Origin: Pseudobdellovibrionaceae bacterium
Lineage (GTDB): Bacteria; Bdellovibrionota; Bdellovibrionia; Bdellovibrionales; Bdellovibrionaceae
DNA length: 64,000 bases
Direction of reading: 5' to 3'
Assembly (NCBI GenBank): GCA_019637915.1
Contig: JAHBUV010000001.1
Coordinates: 1,334,565-1,398,564, forward strand
Shown: positions 7,278-60,650 of the stretch, in pieces
Layout of the letters: every line of letters starts with the position of its first letter
Numbering within the stretch: position 1 is the first letter of the stretch
Notes under the pieces: model-generated
Databases searched by the model: none
Seen by the model: the letters and a program-made list of their open reading frames with translations, nothing else
Told to the model about the DNA's origin: nothing
Translations under genes and position numbers: made by a program

Positions 7278-7829
7278 ATGGCCGAGAAAGTGAAACTCTC
7301 CAAAGACGGAAGCTCGATTGACTTCGTGCAGTCGGAAAATCTCCCGACCTCCCTGAAAAAGTTCCGTCAAAGCCCGGAAATCGAAGGTTTCTACCGCTTT
7401 ATCTACGAAAACGACCTGCAGAAAGAAGCCTACGACATCCTGGATCGTATCATTGCCGAGCGTAAAAACAAACGCGCGGAAGCCAAGGCCCAGGCGAAGG
7501 CCGCGGCCAAGGAAGTGAAAATGGCCGAAAAGGCCGCCGCCAAAGAGGCCGCGCAAAAAGAGCGCGAGCAAGCCAAAGCGGCTGCCGCGAAAGCCGCGGC
7601 GGAAAAAGCCGCCAAGGCCAAGGCCGCCGCCGAGAAAGCGGCTGAAAAGGCCGCCGCGAAAGCCGCGGCCAAGGCGGCGAAGAAGGCCGCCTCGGTGAAA
7701 GCCAAACCCGCGTCCAAAGCCCCCGCCAAACCGGCGAAAAAGGCCGCCCCGGTGAAGGCCAAGGCGAAACCGGCCAAAAAGGCCGCCCCCGCCAAAAAGC
7801 CGGCGGGCAAAGCCAAAAAGAAGAAATAA
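7278..7829 (+). CDS. Histone H1-like Lys/Ala-rich DNA-binding protein
   Basis: The 183-residue protein has a folded N-terminal part of about 60 residues (FVQSENLPTSLKKFRQSPEI, helical YRFIYENDL). The rest is a long tail made almost only of Ala, Lys and Pro, with repeats such as KAAPVKAKAKPAKKAAP. Such tails bind DNA non-specifically and are typical of bacterial H1-like nucleoid proteins. A consensus promoter, a strong ribosome-binding site and an intrinsic terminator make this a well-expressed single-gene unit. The GroES-fusion protein at 59547-60113 carries the same type of tail, but at its N-terminus. Confidence 0.8.
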   Translation: MAEKVKLSKDGSSIDFVQSENLPTSLKKFRQSPEIEGFYRFIYENDLQKEAYDILDRIIAERKNKRAEAKAQAKAAAKEVKMAEKAAAKEAAQKEREQAKAAAAKAAAEKAAKAKAAAEKAAEKAAAKAAAKAAKKAASVKAKPASKAPAKPAKKAAPVKAKAKPAKKAAPAKKPAGKAKKKK

Positions 7830-58102: not shown

Positions 58103-59524
58103 TCAAAAGGTGATGGCGGCTCTCGTCGAAAATCCGTATGTGAAACCGTTGGGCCGGTCGACGGTGCCGTCTTTGAAGGCCGCGCCGGGGAACAACAGTC
58201 CGAGCTGGTTTTCCCACCGCATGTTCTCACGCGGTTTGTAAATCAACCCGATGTCCCACTCTAAGCCCAGGTCTTTTTTGAAATCCACGGAATTCGTCGG
58301 GTTGACCATTAATTGGGCATAGGTCAAGGAGTTCACAATGTCCCAGCGCTCGCTCCAGCCGTAGCGGATTTTCGGCGACAGGTAAACCGCGTTGCTGATG
58401 GCCTCGTCGTCCAGGGAATTCGAGACGTCGTGAACGCTCGTGTCTTTGATCAGATTCGTGCGCAGGAAATCCGCTCCGCCCAGGCGGTGGTTGAAGAGCA
58501 GCATCGCCACGTCGTAATTGCGGTGGAACGTGAAGCCTTCCCAGTTGTCTTTGGTCTTCGGATCGTCGCCGGAAGCGACGCCCAGGCGCACGGAAGCGTC
58601 CCACTTGCCTTCGGGGCGCGGGAAGTCCATCTCCATGGCGATGCCGTAGGAGTTGTTTTTCACTTCGTCGCCTTCCAGCGTGCGCACGCCGTAGCTGCCC
58701 GAGAGGAAAGAGCCTTCCATGCGGAATTTGAAACTTTCCCACTCGCGCTTCAGGATGAAGCTCGTGGTCTGCATCGAGTAAGCGTCGGCGCGGGTGGCGC
58801 CGGCGCCGCCGATCATGTCGGCTTTCGGGGCCGCGCTGAAGGGAGTGTCGTTGTTGCCCGGGGAGCTCTGACGGCGACTGATCACGGCGCCGATCGTCGA
58901 GCCCGTGTCTTTGCTGTCATAAAGGAACTCGAAGATCTGGTCCTGCACGGTGTTCGCCAGACCCGCGTCCGCCGCGGCCACGCGGCCGATCATCGGCATG
59001 AAGGACAGATTGCCGACGATGAATTTGTAACCGACCAGGTCCATGCTGGTGTGCCAATGATCGAACAAACCGCGGCCGGCGTTGTACGAAATCCCCAGAC
59101 CGAACTCATAGGGCGCGCGGCCGACGATCAAGGAACCGTACTCCTGCTGCACGTGCATGTAGAGCTCGCTGACGCGGAGAGTGGTCGTCCCCTTCGTCTG
59201 GCTCAGGGTGTTGCTGCGCGAATCGTCCGCGCCGGCCGGCAGGGACTGGCCCCACAACTGACCGAACTGCTGATTCGTGTAGGCGGCGTCTTCGTTGGCC
59301 AGGACATCGAAAGCCGAGTGGATGGTGACGCCATCGGTGGCGATGATCTTCGGGCTCAGGCGCAGGTAATTCAGACCATAAGCCTTGCTCCAGCCCGGCG
59401 TGCCCAGGGAGGGACGGTCCACCTGCATCCATTCGAAACGGTAAGTGCCGGCCCAATCCAGGGTCATGGCCGGGGCCGCGGCGGAGAACAAAAGAATTCC
59501 CAACGTCAGAATACGTGACTTCAT
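58103..59524 (-). CDS. Large outer-membrane porin-like protein
   Basis: The 473-residue protein has a signal peptide (MKSRILTLGILLFSAAAPAM). It starts the mature part with LDWAGTYRFEW, contains many alternating strands, and ends GFSTRAAITF with the terminal Phe of barrel proteins. About 16-18 strands are plausible. It lies 22 bases after the GroES-fusion gene in the same direction and is followed by a strong terminator. It may be an abundant outer-membrane protein, but no substrate can be read. Confidence 0.7.
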   Translation of the reverse strand: MKSRILTLGILLFSAAAPAMTLDWAGTYRFEWMQVDRPSLGTPGWSKAYGLNYLRLSPKIIATDGVTIHSAFDVLANEDAAYTNQQFGQLWGQSLPAGADDSRSNTLSQTKGTTTLRVSELYMHVQQEYGSLIVGRAPYEFGLGISYNAGRGLFDHWHTSMDLVGYKFIVGNLSFMPMIGRVAAADAGLANTVQDQIFEFLYDSKDTGSTIGAVISRRQSSPGNNDTPFSAAPKADMIGGAGATRADAYSMQTTSFILKREWESFKFRMEGSFLSGSYGVRTLEGDEVKNNSYGIAMEMDFPRPEGKWDASVRLGVASGDDPKTKDNWEGFTFHRNYDVAMLLFNHRLGGADFLRTNLIKDTSVHDVSNSLDDEAISNAVYLSPKIRYGWSERWDIVNSLTYAQLMVNPTNSVDFKKDLGLEWDIGLIYKPRENMRWENQLGLLFPGAAFKDGTVDRPNGFTYGFSTRAAITF

Positions 59525-59546
59525 CGAACAGGCCTTTCTCATTGGA

Positions 59547-60113
59547 TCAGGAAACGACGCCCATCAGTTCCACCTCGCGGAGGATGATGAGTTCTTCATT
59601 TTGCATTTTGATTTTCGAACCGGCATGGGATGAAAACACGACGCGGTCGCCGCGACGCACGTCCATGGGACGCAGGCGGCCTTTCTGATCGCGATGACCA
59701 CGGCCGACGGCGACGATGGTGCCCTGCAGGTTGCCGGAGACGTCCGACACGGTGTCGGGAATGTAAAGACCGCCCGCGGTCATGCGTTCCTGACCGGCCA
59801 GCTGCACGATCACGCGGTCATCCAGCGGCGTCACGAAATCCGACAGATCGAGAAGGGGCCGCTTCGGCGCCGCCTTGGCGGACGGGGTCCTGGCCGCGGG
59901 CTTTTTCAGCGCCGTTTTCTTCACGGCCGTTTTCACCGCCGGCTTTTTGGCCGCGGACTTTTTCGTCGCCGCGGTTTTCGCGGCCGTCTTTTTCGGCTTC
60001 TTCGGCGCGGGCTTTTTCGCCGCGGTTTTTTTCGTTTTCACGGATGCCGTTTTTTTCGCGCTCTTCTTGGCGGCTGATTTCTTCGGAGCCGCCTTTTTCT
60101 TAGCCTTGGCCAC
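59547..60113 (-). CDS. GroES (Cpn10) domain fused to an N-terminal histone-like tail
   Basis: In this 188-residue protein residues 1-87 are almost only Lys, Ala, Pro and Thr (AKKKAAPKKSAAKKSAKK and similar), like bacterial histone H1-like proteins. Residues 94-187 are a full co-chaperonin domain: TPLDDRVIVQ, the mobile-loop region ERMTAGGLYIPDT, GTIVAVGRG, DVRRGDRVVFSSHAG and the end EELIILREVELMGVV. GTG 60113 has GAGG upstream and overlaps the DUF507 stop by 14 bases; the longer frame is shadow sequence. No groEL is adjacent. The fusion suggests a DNA-associated or specialised GroES paralogue. Confidence 0.85.
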   Translation of the reverse strand: MAKAKKKAAPKKSAAKKSAKKTASVKTKKTAAKKPAPKKPKKTAAKTAATKKSAAKKPAVKTAVKKTALKKPAARTPSAKAAPKRPLLDLSDFVTPLDDRVIVQLAGQERMTAGGLYIPDTVSDVSGNLQGTIVAVGRGHRDQKGRLRPMDVRRGDRVVFSSHAGSKIKMQNEELIILREVELMGVVS

Positions 60114-60375
60114 GCTTGCCTCTCTCTTCCTCGTAGTATTTCCGGTACAAGATGTCCCATTCGGGACTGCCTTCGATAACACCGCGTTTGAGCGAGGTCA
60201 CCTTGGCTCGGGCCTTGGCGTCAATTTCCTGGTCTTCTTTGATGAATTCGAGGATGGCGCGCTTGGCGGCGCGCAGGGCCTGGTCTTCGTCGGTGAAGTC
60301 CACCAGGTCATCGTTGTAAACGACATCGGTGGCGAGGTGGGCCCAATGAGTCTGACGGTCTTCCGAGAGAATCAC
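60100..60375 (-). CDS. DUF507-family protein, second of pair
   Basis: The 91-residue protein (ILSEDRQTHWAHLATDVVY at the N-terminus) is helical and charged, with AKVTSLKRGVIEGSPEWDILYRKYYEEE at the end (in parts) matching the DUF507 C-terminal style. It overlaps the other DUF507 gene by four bases and the GroES-fusion gene by 14. DUF507 proteins are small, cytoplasmic and of unknown function. Confidence 0.75.
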   Translation of the reverse strand: MILSEDRQTHWAHLATDVVYNDDLVDFTDEDQALRAAKRAILEFIKEDQEIDAKARAKVTSLKRGVIEGSPEWDILYRKYYEEERGKRGQG

Positions 60376-60650
60376 AGGATCACCTTCTTTTCCTTGGCCA
60401 TTTTGTTGCGCAACATCGGATACATTTTGTGGCGTTCAAACTGGCCGCCGTGCGATCTCTCCAGTTGATCCAGCATGGCATGGACCTCGCGGTCGAGGTC
60501 GATCTCCTTCTGAATCTCTTTTCGGAAAACCGCCTCGATTTTTTCCTGCACGACCCGCTCGTCCGCTTTGAAATGCACGACGTGGGTCTCTTTCCAGTGA
60601 TCGAGGATTTTTCGGGCCAAGGCTTGAATCTGGTTCGGGCTCAATTTCAT
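60372..60650 (-). CDS. DUF507-family protein, first of pair
   Basis: The 92-residue protein has the family-typical start MKLSPNQIQALARKILDHW, a middle VVQEKIEAVFRKEIQKEI and DLDREVHAMLDQLERSHGGQ. It is paralogous to its neighbour. It heads the leftward operon and is separated from the divergent penicillin-binding-protein gene by only 34 bases, so the two promoters must overlap each other or the coding sequences. Confidence 0.78.
   Translation of the reverse strand: MKLSPNQIQALARKILDHWKETHVVHFKADERVVQEKIEAVFRKEIQKEIDLDREVHAMLDQLERSHGGQFERHKMYPMLRNKMAKEKKVIL

Follow-up and report, generated by a model that had tools for sequence, protein, structure and literature searches.

The stretch of DNA that we analysed (64,000 nt, referred to here as the window) carries on its minus strand groES2, a gene for a GroES protein with a lysine-rich N-terminal tail. 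The features of groES2 and of the genes on either side of it are collected in Table 1.

Table 1. Features of the groES2 locus (positions are those of the window)
Feature	Positions	Strand	Details
DUF507 N-terminal half gene	60372..60650	-	92 aa; Pfam PF04368 positions 1-93; 4-nt overlap with next gene
DUF507 C-terminal half gene	60100..60375	-	91 aa; Pfam PF04368 positions 93-181; 14-nt overlap with groES2 start
Shine-Dalgarno of groES2, GAGAGAGG	60119..60126	-	Within 3' end of upstream DUF507 gene
groES2, complete tailed GroES	59547..60113	-	188 aa; GTG start at 60113, stop at 59547
H1-like N-terminal tail, residues 1-87	59853..60113	-	Composition; predicted disorder; purifying selection in orthologs
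Cpn10/GroES domain, residues 94-187	59553..59834	-	Pfam PF00166; best Foldseek matches are Cpn10/GroES structures
GroEL-binding mobile loop, about residues 108-131, ERMTAGGLYIPDTVSDVSGNLQG	59721..59792	-	Alignments
Roof hairpin, residues 137-149, GRGHRDQKGRLRP	59667..59705	-	Alignments
Outer-membrane beta-barrel-type protein	58103..59542	-	About 475 aa; TIGR04551-like; 5 nt downstream of groES2

The Pfam Cpn10 profile matched residues 94-187 with an E-value of 2.9e-25 and 88.5 bits, against a curated cut-off of 21.1, and was covered from position 2 to position 93 of 93, as expected of a full-length Cpn10. The mobile loop retains the GG-L-Y-I-P-D-T motif and in alignments is two residues longer than that of GroES1, so that the initial annotation, which had described a complete Cpn10 domain with its GroEL-binding loop, is borne out. 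We observed that the loop sequence TAGGLYIPDT is near-invariant among 27 aligned GroES2 orthologs, that GG-L-(Y/F)-I-P-D-T is common to the GroES2 and GroES1 proteins of the same genomes, and that the core residues of the two proteins are close to each other. The roof hairpin differs between them: the acidic 'EDG' of GroES1 (TEDGK) is replaced in GroES2 by a basic '(K/Q)KG' (KKG, RP). The part of the protein outside residues 1-85 has a computed pI of about 6.1. AlphaFold2, run on a single chain with 27 orthologs, gave pLDDT values of 89-93 over most of the core and 73-74 at the mobile loop, and the top Foldseek matches to the predicted structure were the Cpn10/GroES structures 1p3h, 1wnr, 4v4o and 1aon. 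By these criteria of domain, predicted fold and loop, GroES2 is a member of the GroES/Cpn10 co-chaperonin family (PF00166), and the window gene falls among the orthologs of Bdellovibrio bacteriovorus GroES2 (Bd3349). The initial annotation had also proposed a search for a standard groES-groEL pair, and one was found elsewhere in the genome, where a tail-less groES1 of 100 aa adjoins the only groEL; groES2 is thus a second groES.

The order DUF507-N, DUF507-C, groES2 and outer-membrane barrel is a conserved one. The barrel-type gene follows groES2 in most of the loci where the sequence reaches that far, mostly with gaps of 2-25 nt and across genera and families. No other neighbour of groES2 is kept as steadily, and the barrel-type gene is there also when no DUF507 genes lie upstream. 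Its product has a signal peptide and a C-terminal Phe; it matched NCBIfam TIGR04551 with an E-value of 7.9e-21, a match below that family's cut-off, and two of its orthologs showed a weak relation to Alginate_exp. Most genera have the DUF507 pair upstream of groES2; the Bdellovibrio-like genus does not. The division of DUF507 into two overlapping half-genes (60100-60650) is itself a conserved trait, shared by most genera of the order; the DUF507 protein of Aquifex is a single, Y-shaped protein of 183 residues with pseudo-twofold symmetry, the function of which is not known (PMC10439177).

The N-terminal tail and its translation

The tail, of 85-87 residues to the N-terminal side of the Cpn10 domain, agrees with the initial description of a Lys/Ala/Pro stretch: residues 1-85 contain 31 Lys, 2 Arg and no Asp or Glu, with a computed pI of about 12 and a mass of 8.7 kDa. 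No secondary structure was predicted for residues 1-80, where mean pLDDT was 50-58 (AlphaFold2, 27 orthologs). The GroES2 tail thus has the traits of H1-like sequences in being Lys/Ala/Pro-rich, disordered and poor in acidic residues, and we call it H1-like by composition rather than as a member of a family, because its score against NCBIfam hist_H1_lk_Burk was 20.1 bits, below the cut-off of 80. Among orthologs the sequence of the tail drifts while its Lys content stays at 27-48% and its acidic content at no more than 4%, and in tailed genes the core is preceded by anything from 69 to 195 residues, with the frame kept. Constant composition despite drift and variable length suggests selection on charge and disorder.

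The initial annotation had likened the tail to a nucleoid protein at position 7278. The likeness holds for composition only, as the Lys/Ala/Glu-rich protein encoded there (7278-7829) contains Glu and Asp, matched none of the nucleoid-protein families, and was missed when the tail was used as a query against the genome. In that search the tail itself was the only match with a significant E-value, and we rejected on this ground the idea that it is a repeat spread through the genome; KKxxKK-type stretches similar to it are found on a few other proteins. Proteins of the genome with H1-like stretches were located by a pattern search. They include a SWIB/MDM2-domain protein that has an H1-like tail at its N-terminus (L154:724-1353; G000:C1 about 734.7-735.4 kb), ribosomal protein bL21 with one at its C-terminus (L156:272-991; G000:C1 about 1927.3-1928.0 kb), and a protein whose first half is basic and H1-like and whose second half is strongly acidic (L155:1501-2049; G000:C1 about 1184.5 kb), which showed a weak, sub-cut-off similarity to HC2 and has a similar counterpart in L194.

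The GroES2 tail has been set aside in the literature as an error of annotation. The B. bacteriovorus gene, bd3349, was re-annotated from 224 to 117 aa, with an internal Met at base 322 as its start, on the ground that the sequence ahead of this Met is repetitive and without BLAST similarity (PMC3464611). Two of our sequences, L006 and L007, match these figures, giving 224 aa when read from the upstream GTG and 117 aa when read from the internal Met; in L006 a start five codons below the original one (219 aa) would have the better placed Shine-Dalgarno sequence. We observed that L006 and L007 are also the only 2 of 42 tailed genes to possess the internal ATG. It is missing from their close relative L009, the tail of which is 95% identical to theirs, and from the window gene.

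The long start, on the other hand, is well supported. In the window gene, pairing with the anti-Shine-Dalgarno sequence amounts to -7.9 kcal/mol at the GTG, and no internal start does better than -6.3. Among the 42 tailed genes, the long start paired more strongly than every internal start in 41, and the means were -6.3 kcal/mol for long starts and -1.5 for internal candidates. At the head of the 27 aligned proteins, which come from many genera, Met1 and Ala2 are invariant and Lys3 is near-invariant. Codons upstream of the internal Met are also under purifying selection. Untranslated DNA would be expected to give dN/dS near 1; the three close pairs formed by L006, L007 and L009 gave 0.062, 0.098 and 0.048 in this region and the pair L010/L046 gave 0.17, while distant pairs gave 0.26-0.54, values that are less reliable owing to repeat alignment and saturation.

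From these comparisons we conclude that the tail is translated, against the published 117-aa reading, because the internal ATG is rare, the long start and its Shine-Dalgarno sequence are conserved, the upstream codons are under purifying selection, and frame and composition are kept. Nor is the tail a chance open frame, since it is found in dozens of genera with a conserved start and purifying selection. The reading in which it is an annotation artefact and an internal start yields a tail-less protein, as was proposed for Bd3349, has in its favour the published argument that the N-terminus is repetitive and shows no similarity by BLAST (PMC3464611); set against the scarcity of the internal ATG, the strength of the Shine-Dalgarno sequence ahead of a conserved Met-Ala-Lys, and the dN/dS values, it is very improbable, and we have rejected the internal start that the initial annotation had named as a possible objection.

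Distribution and descent of groES2

A tailed copy was present in 33 of 36 relatives within the family, in 29 of the 31 family genomes that are at least 95% complete, and in 13 of 23 members of the order outside the family, so that the initial concern that the tail might be absent from all relatives does not apply. Of the 10 families sampled in the order, 7 showed tails, the window's own among them. These counts are based on match coverage and frame, with many of the sequences checked individually. Two near-complete family genomes, G003 and G011, had no tailed copy, and only a tail-less GroES was matched in them; they may serve as natural controls for what goes with loss of the tailed copy.

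Outside the order, no tail was seen among the matches listed for the rest of the phylum. Nine genomes with two matches there were checked and had Cpn10 frames of 97-132 aa, and we rejected these second copies as tailed candidates on account of the short frames. A wider scan was made with one genome per species, and its best 80 loci were looked at. Among these, every locus with a Lys-rich tail bore the label of a Bdellovibrionota lineage, with one exception, L067, from a public bin labelled Streptomyces griseus; its GroES2 is of the Bdellovibrionales type with a tail that matches that of a relative (L027), and the bin is probably mislabelled. In 58 genomes of the phylum to which L077 belongs (a Myxococcales record), the longest frames were checked and no tail was found; the long open frames of Myxococcota genomes G243, G232, G206, G244 and G228 arise from open reading ahead of the gene in GC-rich DNA and do not encode Lys-rich tails. 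A Desulfovibrio locus (L131) that appeared to match from residue 8 proved to be an open frame of 103 aa that has no tail. Phages and plasmids yielded no tailed GroES, and their GroES-like matches always covered <80% of the query. In the aggregate, no tailed GroES was found outside the order among the matches listed for the phylum, in the best 80 loci of the scan, the 58 genomes, the phages or the plasmids.

In a tree of Cpn10 domains, 41 GroES2 sequences fell on one side of a branch with 100/98 support, and GroES1 and the outgroups on the other. By this tree GroES2 is one old clade apart from the canonical GroES1, although the 41 rows were picked for having tails and tail-less members of the clade could still exist.

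Readings of GroES2 function

We propose, with about an even chance of being right, that GroES2 is an alternative GroEL lid that bears seven cationic tails outside the cage, where they would bind polyanions and so moor or tune the chaperonin. A heptameric ring of the GroES2 Cpn10 domain would cap the single GroEL of the cell, each of its seven subunits carrying a disordered polycationic tail, with about 230 positive tail charges in a homo-heptamer. The tails would bind nucleoid DNA, RNA or ribosomes, or polyphosphate, and this binding would either hold GroEL-GroES2 at polyanion sites or alter the dwell time of the lid. We leave the target broad, as lysine-rich tails bind many anionic partners. 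Mixed GroES1/GroES2 rings, which would alter tail stoichiometry, are possible. The proposed timing is a phase of much new protein synthesis, which for predators would be late growth inside the prey. Transcription in B. bacteriovorus points the same way, in that groES2 transcripts occur at 2-4 h of predation but, in contrast to those of groES1, not in the early phase (PMC3464611). A more specific form of the proposal, in which the multivalent tails of GroES2 homo- or hetero-heptamers keep GroEL by the nucleoid, at ribosomes or at polyphosphate condensates for spatially targeted folding late in the predatory cycle, is more tentative.

Recruitment of chaperonin to the nucleoid or RNA, as the initial annotation suggested, fits the evidence from sequence and analogy, because of the composition of the tail, the similar tails on bL21 and the SWIB-domain protein, and the precedents of the DNA-binding AlgP and PhaF. 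The capacity of the GroEL chamber is about 60 kDa, and a position of the tails outside it would be the simpler placement because seven tails of 8.7 kDa (61 kDa) would roughly fill the chamber. Our literature search found no paper stating where the N-terminus of GroES lies in the ring.

Four other readings were weighed. In the first, the tails would point into the folding chamber, perhaps in mixed GroES1/GroES2 rings, and there line or bind the GroEL inner wall or hold an acidic client. The walls of the cage are indeed acidic, two groES genes alongside one groEL would permit mixed rings, and a volume filler could vary in length as the tail does; the bulk of seven tails argues against such a placement, and in a homo-heptamer there would be no room for tails of up to 195 residues, so that we regard it as unlikely. 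Slightly more doubtful is the reading in which polyphosphate, and not nucleic acid, is the target and the chaperonin is brought to polyphosphate granules. Its model is AlgP, which associates with polyphosphate granules and the KPAA-type H1-like tail of which is needed for their spacing (PMC9239181). The AlgP tail binds DNA too, which makes the two targets hard to separate, and the groES2 operon holds no pointer to polyphosphate.

The close and widespread adjacency of groES2 to the barrel gene, kept even without DUF507 upstream, could indicate that GroES2 is a dedicated lid for the barrel protein (or for the DUF507 pair). We consider this improbable: shared transcription can last without a chaperone-client relation, barrel precursors are normally routed to Sec and periplasmic chaperones, and the tail would be left unexplained. 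The reading that a former co-chaperonin has become a heptameric DNA- or RNA-binding ring that no longer works with GroEL, which the initial annotation offered as its second possibility, can draw on the basic character of both tail and roof hairpin and on the long separation of the clade, but is less likely still, as the T-A-G-G-L-Y-I-P-D-T loop and core residues remain near those of GroES1 and dN/dS in the Cpn10 domain is 0.025-0.04 in close pairs.

The proposed moored lid has partial likenesses in several known systems. Phage T4 gp31 is likewise an alternative lid for host GroEL, presumably without a cationic tail, and in Foldseek it was a weak structural match only to the predicted GroES2. 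B. bacteriovorus Bd3349 shares with the window gene its place away from groES-groEL, its conserved GroEL-contact residues and its repetitive N-terminus; the published account discards this N-terminus, whereas we find it conserved order-wide and under coding selection (PMC3464611). Helicobacter pylori HspA is a GroES that has gained, in one lineage, a low-complexity tail that confers a separate binding function, but that tail is C-terminal, His/Cys-rich and metal-binding, and is carried on the sole GroES (PMC4671568), while that of GroES2 is N-terminal, long and polycationic, on a second GroES. Pseudomonas AlgP and PhaF have disordered Lys/Ala/Pro tails of the KPAA type that bind DNA and are linked with polyphosphate or PHA granules (PMC9239181), fused to other domains and not to a chaperonin component. 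Mycobacterial GroEL1, as cited in PMC3724605, is a nucleoid-linked chaperonin component on the GroEL side and not a lid. By title and abstract, no relevant paper on a GroES with a lysine-rich or N-terminal extension was found in the open-licence literature. The initial statement that no such tailed GroES had been described stands in that no GroES of this kind was found there; it does not stand as regards the gene, which is known as Bdellovibrio groES2, nor as regards tails on GroES in general, given HspA (PMC3464611, PMC4671568).

What is new here is that the tail is conserved and translated; the gene was already known and its tail dismissed (PMC3464611). The published gene model of Bdellovibrio groES2 is corrected accordingly, and constructs or truncations designed from the 117-aa form would miss the tail. 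The usual picture of a co-chaperonin is that of a small lid without a tail. That a second lid bearing a polycation of 70-195 residues has been kept order-wide suggests that the lid may serve to direct folding chambers to a location in the cell or to let polyanions tune them, and this bears on the need of such bacteria for two GroES proteins alongside a single GroEL.
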